A DNA stretch of 50,848 nt from an uncultured Verrucomicrobiales bacterium (GTDB taxonomy: Bacteria > Verrucomicrobiota > Verrucomicrobiia > Verrucomicrobiales > Akkermansiaceae): positions 1 to 50,848 of the forward strand of contig CALGLJ010000015.1 in assembly GCA_937930235.1 (NCBI GenBank). The letters run 5' to 3'. The translations under genes and the position numbers were made by a program. The stretch's first letter is position 1; each line of letters begins with the position of its first letter. Shown here in pieces: positions 4,017 through 11,928 of this stretch. The notes under the pieces were generated by a model that saw only the letters and a list, made by a program, of their open reading frames with translations, had not been told where the DNA came from and ran no database searches.

Positions 4017-5384
4017 TTGAGTGATAGCCAGCCACAGAATATTCTCCTCGTAGATCCTGACCACGATTACCTCGACTGGGCCACAAAACATTTGGAAGCA
4101 CCCAGTGTAAAAATCCTAAGATGTGATGATGCAGATAAAGCGCTCAAAGTCGTAAAAAAAGCCGCCATTGACGTCGTGATTTGCGACTTCAAATTAGAGC
4201 CTTTCAGCGGACTCGATCTTCTGGAAAAAATCCGGGCCACCTCTTCTGATACAATCGTCATCCTCACCGCCGCCTTCCCAACCACTGGCCAAATTATTGA
4301 AGCCACTCAGCAAGGCGCTCATGAAGTCCTGCGGAAAGAGGCCCTCGCATTTGAACTCCGGGGTGTCATCGAAGCCGCCCTCCAACTCGTCGATCAAAGG
4401 CGCGACTCCTCGCCAAATGAAGATGAACGTCAAGATGTTGGAAAAAATGCCATCATCGGAATCTCCCGCCCGCTGCAAGATGTCCTCAAGGTAGTCGGCC
4501 GCGTGGCTCAATCAGACGCCCCCGTCCTCGTCACCGGAGAAAGCGGGACCGGGAAAGAGCTCGTGGCCAAATCCATTCACGACTACAGCCCCCGCCGTCA
4601 TAACGAACTCCTCATCATCAACTGTGGAGCCATCCCTGACAACCTCTTGGAATCTGAGCTCTTTGGCCATGAGAAAGGCTCATTCACTGGAGCGATGGCA
4701 CGCCGAGCCGGACGGTTTGAAGAATGCCATGAAGGCACCTTATTTCTCGATGAAGTGGGTGACCTTCCCGGTAGTGTTCAGGTCAAACTCCTCCGCGTCC
4801 TCCAAGATGGGAGTTTCTCACGAGTGGGGAGTAATGAAGTTCTAAAAACTGATGTTCGTATCGTCACCGCAACAAATAAAGACCTTGCGGCAGAGGTGAC
4901 TGCAGGCCGTTTTAGAGAAGATCTCTATTATCGCCTGAACGTGGTAGAAATTACCCTTCCCCCCTTACGTCATCGCCAGGAAGACATCCCTCTTTTAGCT
5001 GAATTTTTCCTCGATCGCATCGCTCGGCGGAACAATCAGGGACGCCTGCAACTTTCCAACGAAGCGGTAGATTATTTAAAAAATCATCGCTGGCCCGGGA
5101 ATGTCCGCGAGCTCGAAAACACGATGACTCGCGCATGTGCGCTTGCCTCCAATGAGCTCCTCTTGCCGGATGATATCCCACTTGGTCGGGCTCCATCTGC
5201 CGCCGTCGGGACTCTTGACGAGGCGCTACAGCTCCTGATCGATGTCTTCTCACGTGATGGTGCAAATGCCATCACCCGCACGCAGCAAGAACTGGTCCGC
5301 TTTGCGCTGGAACAGACCGGGGACAATGAGGACGCCGCCGCCCATCTTCTCGGAGCAAGCGTGAAAGAACTGCGGAATTCCTAA
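4017..5384 (+). CDS. Sigma-54-dependent response regulator (NtrC family), shortened C-terminus
   Basis: Three parts are visible: a receiver domain (about 5-122) with phospho-acceptor Asp57 in VVICDF and the conserved threonine at ILTAAF; a central AAA+ domain with Walker A GESGTGKE at 174-181 and the sigma-54 contact loop as GSFTGA at 221-226, one residue from the GAFTGA consensus; and a C-terminal Fis-like segment ([16 protein letters not shown]) that stops after KELRNS. In relatives the recognition helix continues for roughly ten more residues, so the DNA-binding part looks clipped. The start is TTG at 4017, 14 bases after uppS. No histidine kinase is nearby, making it an orphan regulator with unknown targets. 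Confidence 0.9.
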
Positions 5385-6095: not shown

Positions 6096-7492
6096 AAGAT
6101 CACCTCCTTACCAAGTTCAGCAACGGAGACTTCTCCGTCGTGAATCTGAGTGAGAGCATCGCACATCTTTTCAGAGCGGCTCGTCTCGCCATGTACGAGC
6201 CATACTTTTTTACGAGGTCCGGACATGGCGTTGAAGTAGTCGATCAATTCTGAATGATCAGCGTGACCGGAGAAGGAGTCCATCTTCTCGACATTGGCTC
6301 GCAGTTTATATTCTTCTCCGAAGATGCGGACTTTTTCTTTCCCCTCTCTGATCTTAGATCCTAGGGTATTTTCGGCACAATATCCTACAAATAGGATGGT
6401 GTTTTTTGGGTTCTCAATCCCGTTCTTGAGATGGTGCAAAATGCGCCCAGCTTCGCACATCCCGGAAGCCGAGATGATGATTGCTTGCTGGTCTTGAGCA
6501 TTGAGTTCCTTGGATTTAGCAACAGAACGGATGAGAGTTAAGCCTTCGAAACCGAAGGGATTCTGTTTATCAAACAGAACTTGGTAAACCTCCTCATTAA
6601 AACATTCGGGATGGAGTCTGAAAATTTCCGTCGCATTCACAGCAAGCGGACTGTCTACATAAACTGGGATATCAGGAATTTCATCATTACGGAAAAGCTG
6701 ATACAGCACGTAGAGAAGTTGCTGAGTGCGTTCTACGGCGAAGGCAGGAATAATGATTTTTCCTCCTCGGTCGATCGCCTGACGCAAGATCTCTGCCACT
6801 TGTTCATCGGCCTGAGTTCCCAGTTCATGCTCACGTCCTCCGTAGGTGCTCTCCATCAAAAGGTAATCAATGTTTTCTGCAATGACGGGATCACGCAGCA
6901 GGTCATTATTTCCTCGGCCGACATCTCCAGAGAATAAGAAGCGTTTCGTTTTTCCATCCTCCTCATCTTCAACTTCGAGTAACACCTGCGCACTTCCAAG
7001 AATATGACCGGCATCCAGAAATGTCAGCTTCACTCCTTTGCCAATGTGCATCGCTCGATTATACCCCATGTTTACAAACTGGCGGTTGCACTGTTCGGCA
7101 TCTTGAACGGAGTAGAGAGGCTCTAAGGGAGGGAGATTTTCTTTCTTTCGCCTCTTGTTGACCCAATCCGTATCTGATTTTTGAATGCGTGCTGAGTCCG
7201 CGAGCATGATTTGACAGAGGTCACGTGTTGCGAACGTTGCATAAATATTCCCATTGAATCCCTTACTCGTGAGATTCGGTAAATTCCCGCTATGATCAAT
7301 GTGTGCATGAGAAAGAACGACGGAATCGATCGTCGCTGGATCAAAATGAGGAAAACAACAGTTAATCTCATACGCATCTTTCCTCCTTCCCTGATACAAT
7401 CCGCAATCGAGCAAAATACGCTGCCCATTGACCTCTAACAAATGCTGCGACCCGGTCGTCGTTCCTGCTGCTCCACAAAACTTAAGCTTCAT
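6092..7492 (-). CDS. Beta-CASP metallo-beta-lactamase RNA nuclease (YSH1/CPSF73-like)
   Basis: The protein has the metal-binding HAHIDH motif at about 62-67, the later histidine/aspartate motifs DAGHILGSA and SGDVGR, and the beta-CASP cap signatures SASGMCEAGR and SGHADH, ending with LVHGE. This combination identifies the prokaryotic beta-CASP exonuclease group related to archaeal aCPSF1-type and bacterial MBL-fold RNA exonucleases. At 466 residues it lacks an added RNA-binding KH domain or C-terminal extension, as is common for the bacterial type. It probably acts in RNA processing or decay in the cytoplasm; the substrate is not inferable. The start ATG follows an AT-rich leader that contains a hairpin at 7531-7551. 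Confidence 0.93.
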   Translation of the reverse strand: MKLKFCGAAGTTTGSQHLLEVNGQRILLDCGLYQGRRKDAYEINCCFPHFDPATIDSVVLSHAHIDHSGNLPNLTSKGFNGNIYATFATRDLCQIMLADSARIQKSDTDWVNKRRKKENLPPLEPLYSVQDAEQCNRQFVNMGYNRAMHIGKGVKLTFLDAGHILGSAQVLLEVEDEEDGKTKRFLFSGDVGRGNNDLLRDPVIAENIDYLLMESTYGGREHELGTQADEQVAEILRQAIDRGGKIIIPAFAVERTQQLLYVLYQLFRNDEIPDIPVYVDSPLAVNATEIFRLHPECFNEEVYQVLFDKQNPFGFEGLTLIRSVAKSKELNAQDQQAIIISASGMCEAGRILHHLKNGIENPKNTILFVGYCAENTLGSKIREGKEKVRIFGEEYKLRANVEKMDSFSGHADHSELIDYFNAMSGPRKKVWLVHGETSRSEKMCDALTQIHDGEVSVAELGKEVIF

Positions 7493-7705: not shown

Positions 7706-8044
7706 ATGACCCCTCTACGCCCAAACCACATAGATGCACATGATGATGTCATCGATTCTTTCCAGGCCACTTTGGATTTTGCAAAACTGCATCAAAGTGC
7801 CCCTCAAGCAGAGAAAGGCCTACGCATCGCTCCCAAATATATCGATACCGCTTCCAGCCTCATCTCTCATGCTGGGCTCCCGAATCTTGAACGAGTGATC
7901 GCAACTGGATCAACTTCCCGCTTCATGCTATTTTCCATGCATTCTGATAATGAAGATTCGCCTGGTCCTCGCATGTTTGGCATCACGACCAAAGCGAACA
8001 CCAACGCCACCACAATCTCAAATCTCGTAAGAGAAGTTCTTTGA
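7706..8044 (+). CDS. Small protein with possible Roadblock/LC7-like C-terminal half
   Basis: A 112-residue soluble protein without signal peptide or membrane segment. I do not recognise its family with confidence. Its second half (RVIATGSTSRFMLFSMH, then ANTNATTISNLVREVL) has the beta-beta-helix order and the closing helix pattern of Roadblock/LC7 domains, whereas the first half is a polar helical region. It ends only 10 bases before the next gene, which clearly begins with a Roadblock-like domain fused to a kinase, so the two are probably co-expressed and may form a heterodimer. Longin/Roadblock proteins usually work as dimers that regulate small GTPases, but no GTPase gene is in the window. 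Confidence 0.6.
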   Translation: MTPLRPNHIDAHDDVIDSFQATLDFAKLHQSAPQAEKGLRIAPKYIDTASSLISHAGLPNLERVIATGSTSRFMLFSMHSDNEDSPGPRMFGITTKANTNATTISNLVREVL

Positions 8045-8054
8045 AACGTAAGTT

Positions 8055-9392
8055 ATGACTGGTCGAAGTGTCGTTGATGCCCTAACTGCCATGAATGGCG
8101 TGTATGGCTCGTTTCTCTGCTCACTGGAGGGCAAAAATATTGTATCCGCCGCCCCAGCAGATTTCACCGTCGAAGTGTTAGAAACCCTCTCGCAGCAAGG
8201 AGCTTCTCTGATGGATCAAGCGAAAAAAAAGATCCCTGATTGCTACGAACTTCGCTTGGATAGCGAGGCGGCCGTCGTTTTGATTTACGAAGTCCAAGAT
8301 CGGCTCGTCTTTGTGTTCACCAATCATCCTGATCCTGAAGCACCCGTCATTCTTCGCCCTCAAATTTTGGAAATTTGTGCCCAATATCAGGCAGACGCAC
8401 AATTTGTCCCGACTTCATTCTCGGCTCCTTTTGAGTCGGCGATGAGTATTGTCCCTCGCACTCGAGCGGCACAACTTGATCGGGCAAATCCTCTCAACGC
8501 CGAAATCATCAAACCTGCTACGCCCGAAGAAAAAGCTCCAACCACCACCGTCGAAGCGGATCGATATACCAAGGAAGTCAAGATTGGTGAAGGCGGTACC
8601 GCAGAGGTTTACCGAGCTTATGACACGCATCTTAAAAGAGAGGTGGCGCTCAAACGTTTTAAGGAAAACTCGTCTAAGAACACGAAAGATGATTACCGAT
8701 CTGAACTGATATCGGCATCACGCATCCGACATCATGGCGTCGTCAGTATCTTTGATGCTGGAGTTGATAATCGAGGGCGCTTCATCGTCATGGAACTCGT
8801 GAATGGCGAAAATCTTGAAAAATTAGGAGGGAAAAACCTTTCTGATCTCAATAGCTTTACCGACTTTGCGGTCCAAGCCCTAGAAGGGCTAAATACCACC
8901 CACGAGAGTGGACTTCTGCACTTAGACTTAAAACCCTCGAACATCATGATCTCCACTGGGGCCAGTGGCAGAAATCATGTGACTTTGATCGATTATGGCC
9001 AGGCTACCCTACGCGCTGGGGTAGAAGGAAGTGAGGCTCCGGTCGGGCACGGACTCGATGGTTCGATTTACTTCACCAGCCCTGAATATCTGAATAAAGC
9101 TCCGGTAGATACCCGCTCTGACATTTACTCGATGGGATGTCTTTTCTATTGGATTCTTTCTGGGAAATTCCCCTTCGATGGATATACCTCGCTGCAAGTG
9201 ATGGCGGCTCATCTCCAGCACATCGTGCCGCCATTACAGGAGGTCGTCCCTGAAATTCCTAGTGATCTGGCAGAATGGGTCATGTCGCTCATCAGTCTTG
9301 AGCCCGACAAACGCCCAGCAGATGCGCAGACCGCCTTAGAGCTCCTCCTTAAAAAGGTGAATACTGATAAAATTCACCAACTTGGATCCTAA
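8055..9392 (+). CDS. Roadblock/LC7-like domain fused to a Hanks-type Ser/Thr protein kinase
   Basis: Residues 5-112 resemble a Roadblock/LC7 domain (LTAMNGVYGSFLCSLEGKNI at the start). A linker at about 113-170 leads to a protein kinase domain with glycine-rich loop IGEGGTAEV (177-185), ATP-binding Lys200 in VALK, catalytic loop HLDLKPSN (289-296, Asp291), metal-binding DYG (313-315) and activation-segment motif SPEY (342-345). HLD in place of HRD and DYG in place of DFG are non-consensus but the catalytic Asp, Lys and Asn remain, so it should be active; loss of the HRD arginine often means no need for activation-loop phosphorylation. There is no transmembrane segment or PASTA repeat, so the kinase is cytoplasmic. 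It is 8 bases upstream of an exported SGNH hydrolase. Confidence 0.9.
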   Translation: MTGRSVVDALTAMNGVYGSFLCSLEGKNIVSAAPADFTVEVLETLSQQGASLMDQAKKKIPDCYELRLDSEAAVVLIYEVQDRLVFVFTNHPDPEAPVILRPQILEICAQYQADAQFVPTSFSAPFESAMSIVPRTRAAQLDRANPLNAEIIKPATPEEKAPTTTVEADRYTKEVKIGEGGTAEVYRAYDTHLKREVALKRFKENSSKNTKDDYRSELISASRIRHHGVVSIFDAGVDNRGRFIVMELVNGENLEKLGGKNLSDLNSFTDFAVQALEGLNTTHESGLLHLDLKPSNIMISTGASGRNHVTLIDYGQATLRAGVEGSEAPVGHGLDGSIYFTSPEYLNKAPVDTRSDIYSMGCLFYWILSGKFPFDGYTSLQVMAAHLQHIVPPLQEVVPEIPSDLAEWVMSLISLEPDKRPADAQTALELLLKKVNTDKIHQLGS

Positions 9393-9400
9393 ACTTTTTT

Positions 9401-10855
9401 ATGTCATTGCTCCATCTATCCTTCGTCTTACTAGTGGCTTCTCTGTTCGCTCGTGCGGAGACTTACACCACGATCAAATTAGAAAATGAACGCGGTGGCT
9501 TCACTGGAGACAGTGTATCCACCGGAATCATTACTCCTCTGGATCAAGAAATGAAAAATTTCTACATCCGCAATGCTGATGGCGTGATCGAAGTCAAACT
9601 CACCCCAGATGCGGTGATCGGCCTGCAAGCGAAGGTCACAAAAGATCAACTGAAGAAGCGCAAAATCTCATTCAAAGCAGGAGAGCAACACTACTCATAT
9701 CAGCTTCCTGAGAAACTTTATGTGAGGCGACAATTCAAAGACGCTCAAACGGTGCAAGATTTTTTAAATCGTGGGGAAATGAAACTCGCCCTCGGGAAAA
9801 TTTACACCACGAAATTACCTGACCATCTCCCAACGGCCGATGAACCTTGGATCTCAGGCATGCTCACCGAAGTCACTGATAAATTCATGAAAGTGAAAGT
9901 CCATGGTGAGCCGTACCTCATTCGCACCGATTCTCATGATCGCATGCAGCGCATCATGGGACTCTTCACTCACAAAGATATCAAACCATTTTCCCAGCAA
10001 GCGTATGTGTATGGAAAGAGAGTTGATCATGTCTTTCACGCGAGCGAAGTCGGACTCAAAATGCTCGAGGACTCCTCTCTCAAAGATGACCCGCAGCTTG
10101 GGCGCTATCTTTTCATCGGAGATTCTATTTCTGGAAATTACGATCGCGCTCTCCGAACCGCGTTGAAGGGCAAGCTGAACATCTATCATCCTCCGGTAAA
10201 CTGTGGCGCGAGTGGTCGTGGGGTAAAACAAATGGGAATGTGGCTCGGTGCGCACGATCAACCAGGCCAAAATTGGGACATCATCAGCTTTAACTTCGGG
10301 CACTGGGATTGTGGAAACTCAAAGGATGTGTATCAAAGTAATCTCGAACTCATCATCTCCGAACTTAAGAAGACGAAAGCCAAACTCATTTACGTCACCA
10401 CTGCTCCGGTCCCAAATGGATACGCCGGACCAGAGCCACTCACCGCAGATGGTAAGGCTCCCGGCCGCACCCGTGGAGTGATGAAAAACTACCTCAACCC
10501 CTGGGCGCTTGAAGTCATGGCGAGGCATCCAGAAATCAACATTTGTGATCAACACAAACTGATCTCTTCCGAAAAATTCTACGCCACGTGGCTAGCTAAA
10601 GCCGGACAAAAAGATGGGAAAGCCTCGAAAGAATATGGCGATGTCCACATCGGAGGACTCCTCGGAGAGCCGGTAGGCCGTCAACTCGCACGGAAAGTCT
10701 TGGATGTTCTCGGCCGGACCGATGAAGCCCTCCATCCACATGGGATTTCGAAAGGACAACTCGCTCCAGAACGTCAACGCGGAGCGACCAAAAATATCGA
10801 CGCGGAAGACTTCCTCGACCTTCTCGAGAGTGATTCCCGTTTGAGAAAATACTAA
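9401..10855 (+). CDS. Exported SGNH/GDSL-type hydrolase with N-terminal accessory region
   Basis: A signal peptide (MSLLHLSFVLLVASLFARAE) directs export. Residues 21-230 form an accessory region I do not recognise. The SGNH hydrolase fold follows: block I FIGDSIS with nucleophile Ser at about 242, block III as NFGHWD where many relatives have GxND, and block V with DVH at about 414-416 supplying the catalytic Asp and His. Such enzymes deacylate polysaccharides or esters outside the cytoplasm; the substrate is unknown. Its ATG is 8 bases after the kinase gene, so a shared transcript is likely, and an imperfect hairpin with a T5 tail follows the stop. No Shine-Dalgarno sequence precedes the ATG. 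Confidence 0.88.
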   Translation: MSLLHLSFVLLVASLFARAETYTTIKLENERGGFTGDSVSTGIITPLDQEMKNFYIRNADGVIEVKLTPDAVIGLQAKVTKDQLKKRKISFKAGEQHYSYQLPEKLYVRRQFKDAQTVQDFLNRGEMKLALGKIYTTKLPDHLPTADEPWISGMLTEVTDKFMKVKVHGEPYLIRTDSHDRMQRIMGLFTHKDIKPFSQQAYVYGKRVDHVFHASEVGLKMLEDSSLKDDPQLGRYLFIGDSISGNYDRALRTALKGKLNIYHPPVNCGASGRGVKQMGMWLGAHDQPGQNWDIISFNFGHWDCGNSKDVYQSNLELIISELKKTKAKLIYVTTAPVPNGYAGPEPLTADGKAPGRTRGVMKNYLNPWALEVMARHPEINICDQHKLISSEKFYATWLAKAGQKDGKASKEYGDVHIGGLLGEPVGRQLARKVLDVLGRTDEALHPHGISKGQLAPERQRGATKNIDAEDFLDLLESDSRLRKY

Positions 10856-10861
10856 TACTGA

Positions 10862-10891
10862 AGGGCTTCTCCGAGGAAGCTCCCTGTTTTT
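10862..10891 (+). terminator. Probable factor-independent terminator of the kinase/SGNH unit
   Basis: AGGGCTTC (10862-10869) pairs with GAAGCTCCCT (from 10877), with a single bulged T at 10881, and five T residues follow at 10887-10891. It begins 7 bases after the SGNH hydrolase stop, between convergent genes, so it would end the plus-strand transcript before the acyltransferase gene. Confidence 0.55.
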
Positions 10892-10899
10892 CGCATCCC

Positions 10900-11928
10900 T
10901 CAAGCTTCGGTCTTGCGGCTCACCTTCTTCTCCACAGCTTCCATGAATAAGCGGAGGCCCCATGCCACGACGATGGCCATCACGAAAAAGAACAGAACTT
11001 TAATCGGCCACGGCAGGGCCATACCCTCGATCGCGTGAGCGAACCACATGTGGCTCAAATACACCTGTAAACTCGATTTTCCCAGCCAAACACCGGCTTT
11101 CAAAAGTCCCACTTGATCCAGAAGAGCTTGGATCTGATGCCTCAAGAGGACAAAAGCCGTGACGATGACCAATCCGAGTATCTGAAGAAAAGAACAAGCC
11201 AAGGTCGGAGGTAAGGAGGACAGCTGCCCGCGAGAATAGAGGAACTTCAAACCCACATATGCCACAAAACAGCCCCCCGCGATCGCGGTCAAAAGAAGAG
11301 GTTTTTTGCATGGCAGATCCCCTTCTACGGCATCTCGTTTCCCGAGCACGACTCCCATCAAAAAGACACAAAAGAAGAAGCTCCACCAGATCGTCGCCGG
11401 GAGAGAACCTAGCGAAACCTTCTCACCGATCTGCGCCGCTTCCAGCGAGGCGTGCGTCACGCAGACAATCCAACCTAATAAACTCGCACCCAGCGCTGCC
11501 TTGACCGCCTTCAGGTCAAATCGCGCCAAAAGCCAAGCGAAAGGATAGAATATCATAATTTGCGCCACGAATTTATAATGCGTCGGCCAGACCAACTGCT
11601 TGAACCCTTCCCCTAGACTCTCAGGACGATGCGCTAGGTTCAAAATCCAGCCAATCACCATCACGACAAAAAGCGTAGGATAAATACGAACCACTCGTCG
11701 GCGATAAAAGGAGCCCAATCCGTATGGACGCTTTGTTTGGCTAATAGCGACCCCATAGCCAGCGAGGAGAAAGAAAATAGAATTCCCCAAAAGTCCGTCC
11801 GCAGCCATCCATGACCGAGGATAAAGTCCTTCCAAATGAGAGTTGGCAATCAAAAGGCATGCGACAGCCATTAAGGGGAATGTTGCCTCTCGAGGATTCA
11901 AATGAGGGGAAGACGTTTGCAAATTCAC
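10900..11928 (-). CDS. Acyltransferase 3 family integral membrane protein
   Basis: A 342-residue polytopic membrane protein with about ten hydrophobic segments. The layout matches acyltransferase family 3 (OafA/NodX-like): an early segment of the LLIANSHLEGLYP type, FFLLAGYGVA, the basic RRRVVRIYP motif near residue 80, and a late STLxVYLSH-like sequence (GKSSLQVYLSHMW). These enzymes move acyl groups to sugars or lipids of the cell surface. It starts at GTG 11928; no upstream ATG in frame fits. The usual catalytic first-helix histidine (H near residue 31) is present. It sits downstream of the MoxR operon on the same strand after an 80-base gap, so it may be read with it, but it has no known connection to it. 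Confidence 0.82.
   Translation of the reverse strand: MNLQTSSPHLNPREATFPLMAVACLLIANSHLEGLYPRSWMAADGLLGNSIFFLLAGYGVAISQTKRPYGLGSFYRRRVVRIYPTLFVVMVIGWILNLAHRPESLGEGFKQLVWPTHYKFVAQIMIFYPFAWLLARFDLKAVKAALGASLLGWIVCVTHASLEAAQIGEKVSLGSLPATIWWSFFFCVFLMGVVLGKRDAVEGDLPCKKPLLLTAIAGGCFVAYVGLKFLYSRGQLSSLPPTLACSFLQILGLVIVTAFVLLRHQIQALLDQVGLLKAGVWLGKSSLQVYLSHMWFAHAIEGMALPWPIKVLFFFVMAIVVAWGLRLFMEAVEKKVSRKTEA

Follow-up and report, generated by a model that had tools for sequence, protein, structure and literature searches.

A stretch of 50,848 nucleotides from the genome of a marine Verrucomicrobiales bacterium (assembly completeness 86.6 %), referred to here as the window, carries three closely spaced genes in which a kinase with a Roadblock-like N-terminal domain stands between a small protein and a hydrolase. 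Roadblock proteins function as dimers or in complexes (PMC9481161), and where their function is known it is mostly the regulation of small GTPases (PMC9481161, PMC4316618). The question raised by this locus is what such a domain does when it is joined to a Ser/Thr kinase, and whether the hydrolase belongs to the same system. The features of the locus are listed below (S, small protein; R, Roadblock domain or protein; K, kinase or its catalytic domain).

7706-8044, plus strand: S, small protein of 112 aa (ORF call)
8055-9392, plus strand: R-K, Roadblock-kinase fusion protein of 445 aa (ORF call)
8055-8399, plus strand: R domain, residues 1-115 of the kinase protein (AlphaFold, Foldseek, VIA-align, hhalign)
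8400-8555, plus strand: variable R-K linker, residues 116-167 (poor conservation; pLDDT below 50 after residue 116)
8556-9329, plus strand: K domain, PknB-like Ser/Thr kinase, residues 168-425 (Pkinase match, invariant residues)
9401-10855, plus strand: SGNH/GDSL-like hydrolase of 484 aa (ORF call; weak PF13472 match)
10863-10882, plus strand: terminator-like hairpin 3' of the SGNH gene (consensus match only)

The intergenic gaps measure 10 bases (S to R-K) and 8 bases (R-K to SGNH); this spacing of the three genes and the kinase motifs HLD and DYG, all reported in the initial annotation, were confirmed from the ORFs and the sequence. The hairpin is weak evidence, since nine terminator-like sites were found in the region and 3.7 are expected in shuffles. 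Upstream of S-R-K lies an NtrC-like response regulator gene (4017-5384, plus strand).

Regarding the N-terminal domain of the window kinase, no match to PF03259 above the curated cut-off was found; Pfam and NCBIfam returned nothing for either S or R of the window, and the R relative of genome G043 scored 20.6 bits against PF03259, below the cut-off of 23. Because R is too divergent for this model, it was assigned by its fold and by a chain of profiles. The AlphaFold model of residues 1-115 (ten-row alignment; mean pLDDT 86.7, pTM 0.81) has the secondary-structure order H-E-E-H-E-E-E-H, which is the alpha-beta-beta-alpha-beta-beta-beta-alpha order of the Roadblock fold. Foldseek with this model gave an Asgard Roadblock protein as the top match (7yh1, 1.4e-6) and also found MglB (6hjm, 2e-5), and VIA-align yielded Z scores of 15.2 to 9jue and 14.9 to MglB. 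The R profile matched that of its free-standing relatives over residues 1-112 (hhalign, 99 %, 3e-18), and the profile of these relatives in turn picks up Roadblock PDB chains (7yh1, 9e-5). Residues 1-115 of the window kinase are thus predicted with confidence to fold as a Roadblock/LC7 domain. The N-terminal Roadblock-like domain first proposed from the letters of the sequence is borne out by the structure model, both structural comparisons and the profile chain; its absence from residues 5-112 was to count against the proposal, and the fold is present in the model.

The remainder of the protein matches Pkinase over residues 171-425 (3.1e-41; 141.9 bits, cut-off 31.7), and its nearest solved structures are those of PknB (9e-30). 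Lys200, Glu217, Asp291, Asn296 and Asp313 are invariant in an alignment of 13 module kinases; the motifs read HLDLKPSN and DYG, with Leu in place of the Arg of HRD. No PASTA domain was found in the window kinase by Pfam, and the score against NF033483 (PASTA kinase, Stk1/PknB equivalog) was 205.8 bits, below the cut-off of 450. Since the catalytic residues are kept and the Pkinase score is high, K should be an active PknB-like Ser/Thr kinase. The proposed attachment of a Roadblock domain to a kinase, here an apparently active one, is supported.

The small protein S yielded no Pfam match. The genome encodes six further homologues, and every one of their genes is closely followed by R or R-K; the conserved motifs are SFQ[AT] and PGPR-x-FG-x-x-T. 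Comparison with Roadblock profiles gave weak probabilities of 40 % and 20 % (hhalign), the reciprocal matches were also weak, and a single-sequence structure model was poor (pLDDT 44). In distant Verrucomicrobiota the gene at the position of S encodes a Roadblock protein (best Pfam E 1.5e-5). From these profile scores and the gene position, S is probably a divergent Roadblock protein; the Roadblock-like C-terminal half ascribed to it at the outset is weakly supported, by the faint profile similarity. Distances among S proteins track those of R (r 0.74) more than those of K (r 0.38), a correlation that would fit a partnership of S and R, yet is partly to be expected from inheritance as a unit. 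(A further S match, in genome G188, was rejected on account of the adjoining rnpA/yidC-like genes.)

Together, S, R and K make up a conserved module, of which this genome has seven copies (contigs C15, which is that of the window, C114, C104, C41, C60, C92 and C21) and six other genomes of the genus have nine or more. S proved to be a conserved neighbour, which bears out its initial grouping with the kinase: it lies immediately upstream of R on the same strand in all 16 genus copies and directly upstream of R in both copies from elsewhere in the order. The S-R gap, measured in 12 of the genus copies, ranges from -19 to 33 bases. An unfused R gene, placed between S and K, occurs in the C21 copy of the same genome, in G022 C245 and in G001, G004, G008 and G017, so that the R-K fusion is one form of the S-R-K set. 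Searches spanning up to 387 genomes placed S in 7 of the 27 genomes of the genus and in two genomes from other families of the order (G043 and G673); the named relatives are mostly uncultured Verrucomicrobiales assemblies. Some surroundings recur: C114 and G011 C181 have a LysR-type gene upstream and a pckA-like gene downstream, and C60 and G011 C226 have nuoEF and a peptidase gene in common (names assigned by eye). Module copies other than that of the window thus adjoin genes other than SGNH, e.g., pckA, nuoEF or ATP synthase genes. K does not always accompany the S-R pair, since three kinases of the module clade (C80 of the same genome, G011 C228 and G011 C11; L049 7412-8527, L037 2501-3580 and L038 2-1159) have no S or R found alongside; the ORF of the G011 C11 kinase (L038) runs off the contig end, and its upstream part is missing.

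The likely origin of the module is visible outside the genus. In G043, S and R are followed by genes for a rhodopsin (114.8 bits), a carotenoid oxygenase (BCD, retinal-forming; 102 bits) and the kinase, in that order; in G673, S and R are followed by a rhodopsin gene. The G043 rhodopsin carries Asp, Thr and Lys at the DTK positions, and its best match is chain 4hyj (6.7e-43), the Exiguobacterium sibiricum rhodopsin. In a tree of 46 kinases, the G043 kinase and all module kinases form one clade (99/97) in which the former branches first. A trace of the same operon is found in the R-K spacer of G022 C284 (CALBVA010000284.1; L033, about 414-805), where a segment matching rhodopsin residues 1-57 (63 % identity, 1.6e-18) gives way, no more than 3 bases on, to one matching oxygenase residues 244-326 (2e-7). 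This joint between a rhodopsin start and an oxygenase end is a probable deletion remnant; a misassembly is conceivable for a single metagenome-assembled contig. The other unfused copies showed no rhodopsin remnants between R and K, and the search of the window's assembly (86.6 % complete) yielded no rhodopsin. Taken together, gene order, kinase tree and remnant support descent from the rhodopsin operon, so that the S-R-K module probably derives from an S-R-rhodopsin-oxygenase-K operon, a case limited to one complete operon with kinase (G043) and one remnant contig. This ancestry is the main new finding of the analysis. The initial reading thus stands in part, having missed the sevenfold repetition, the separate R genes and the probable descent from a rhodopsin operon.

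The association of S-R with rhodopsin holds for a subset of rhodopsins only, since DTE-type rhodopsins and several DTK rhodopsins had no S-R alongside in the stretches examined. Eight further R loci were found in eight genomes from other families of the class (L183, L184, L185, L187 and L240-L243; apart from the genes run against Pfam, neighbours were identified by eye). In seven of the eight, all but L187, R is followed by a response-regulator-like gene; six, all but L242 and L243, have an ammonium-transporter-like gene as the next member of the cluster. Upstream of R, a small Roadblock-like gene is present at six loci, none being listed for L187 and L242. Tandem Roadblock genes with a response-regulator-like and an ammonium-transporter-like gene make up a conserved cluster in L183, L184, L185, L240 and L241 (and in L187, with neither the first gene nor the regulator listed). 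In L186 (G358), a small Roadblock-like gene and R are followed by a rhodopsin split over two ORFs (6387-7123), through a frameshift or a sequencing error, and then by regulator-like genes. The C-terminal tail of R reads [GS]IWG in all four rhodopsin-linked copies (the remnant copy included) and [FY]RGxxY in all eight copies of the other class. Such context-dependent tails suggest a role in partner docking.

We regard S-R-K, with a probability of roughly 0.55, as a self-contained cytosolic signalling module of rhodopsin-operon descent in which a heteromeric S/R Roadblock platform controls the kinase. R, a Roadblock protein, and S, probably a divergent second one, would pair to form the platform; in other Verrucomicrobiota, too, R comes after a second Roadblock gene. 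The platform would control the activity or the location of the PknB-like kinase, with which R shares a polypeptide chain at the window locus. In the ancestral operon the S/R pair probably linked a membrane protein, the rhodopsin, to the kinase; within the genus the rhodopsin would have been lost, most copies would have acquired the R-K fusion, and the module would have increased in number. Each copy could then respond to a different input, the present inputs and substrates being putative.

The hydrolase fits into this scheme poorly. The third gene probably encodes a divergent, exported SGNH/GDSL-like hydrolase, judging from an N-terminus that by eye resembles a signal peptide and from a Lipase_GDSL_2 (PF13472) match of 28.3 bits, below the cut-off of 32.9. 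It was originally proposed that the kinase and this hydrolase are coupled in an envelope or glycan process. The 8-base gap and the terminator-like site beyond the gene make a single transcript with S-R-K plausible. Against the proposal, no SGNH homologue was found elsewhere in the genome and no SGNH match was found among the ORFs of the other module loci searched, and the kinase is predicted to be cytosolic whereas the hydrolase is apparently exported. As SGNH adjoins no other copy examined, a coupling to the envelope is not supported, and control of such a process by S-R-K through the hydrolase appears very improbable. The neighbourhood survey accordingly upheld conservation of the gene order outside this genome for S-R-K and contradicted it for the hydrolase gene, which lies outside the conserved module and would at most be a passenger or a target particular to this locus. 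Convergent with the SGNH gene is an acyltransferase-3 (AT3) gene (10900-11928, minus strand; 66.6 bits). Polysaccharide O-acetyltransferases often combine AT3 and SGNH domains in one protein, and the two gene products may for this reason act together.

Two other explanations concern the module itself. Several PknB-like kinases are activated by dimerisation, and R could be a handle by which R-R homodimers join two kinases for trans-autophosphorylation, with S as an inhibitor or chaperone. MglB does homodimerise (PMC9481161), and the resemblance of S to Roadblock profiles is weak, as a non-Roadblock role for S would have it; S nevertheless always adjoins R, even at loci with an unfused R or with no kinase alongside, and follows R in divergence, which makes this explanation rather unlikely. 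About equally doubtful is a scheme in which S and R act in the manner of MglB, as a platform for a Ras-like GTPase whose gene lies elsewhere and through which the kinase would be controlled. The usual role of Roadblock proteins and the likeness of R to MglB speak for such a GTPase, the gene for which could be missing from an assembly that is 86.6 % complete; no obvious MglA-like gene lies beside the module at any listed locus, however, and an Arf profile found no MglA-like GTPase in this assembly, matching only large ORFs (709, 467 and 549 aa), none of them of MglA size (by eye, the 709-aa ORF resembles IF2 and the 467-aa ORF HflX).

The preferred reading, a Roadblock platform controlling a kinase, differs from each of the known systems that it resembles. 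With MglA/MglB of Myxococcus and Thermus it has in common the Roadblock fold of MglB; that system has a cognate Ras-like GTPase, whereas none was seen at the S-R-K loci or found in the genome, and here the Roadblock domain is fused to, or encoded beside, a Ser/Thr kinase. The actinobacterial conservons (CvnA-D) are likewise multi-copy cassettes in which a Roadblock protein is combined with a small companion protein and with a kinase (PMC4316618, PMC13343842). They combine a histidine-kinase-like sensor, a DUF742-type protein and a Ras-like GTPase, whereas the window operon consists of S, R-K and SGNH only, with a PknB-like kinase and no GTPase seen, and the probable ancestral operon of S-R-K includes a rhodopsin. 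Among PknB-type kinases, to which K is closest in solved structures and in its retained catalytic residues, the module kinase is set apart by an N-terminal Roadblock domain in place of the PASTA domains that were not found, and by HLD instead of HRD. By its best match and its DTK residues, the S-R-linked rhodopsin of G043 resembles the Exiguobacterium-type rhodopsins, which are known from the Planctomycetes-Verrucomicrobia superphylum and described there as light-driven pumps (PMC5673642). In the literature searched, no description was found of tandem Roadblock genes and a kinase beside such rhodopsins, nor any link of Roadblock with rhodopsin in Verrucomicrobia or of a Roadblock domain with a protein kinase domain. 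(Note that this is not proof of novelty.)

A tentative extension of these results is a GTPase-free pathway from rhodopsin via a Roadblock pair to a PknB-like kinase, from which, in marine Verrucomicrobiales, the light sensor would later have been dropped, with fusion and multiplication of the Roadblock-kinase core giving rise to a family of new switches. The G043 operon raises the question of whether an Exiguobacterium-type rhodopsin, usually seen as a proton pump, also signals to a kinase via Roadblock proteins. S-R-K is a testable case of a signalling core cut loose from its sensor, and two Roadblock proteins linked to a Ser/Thr kinase, with no GTPase at the locus, would widen the role of Roadblock proteins beyond the regulation of small GTPases.
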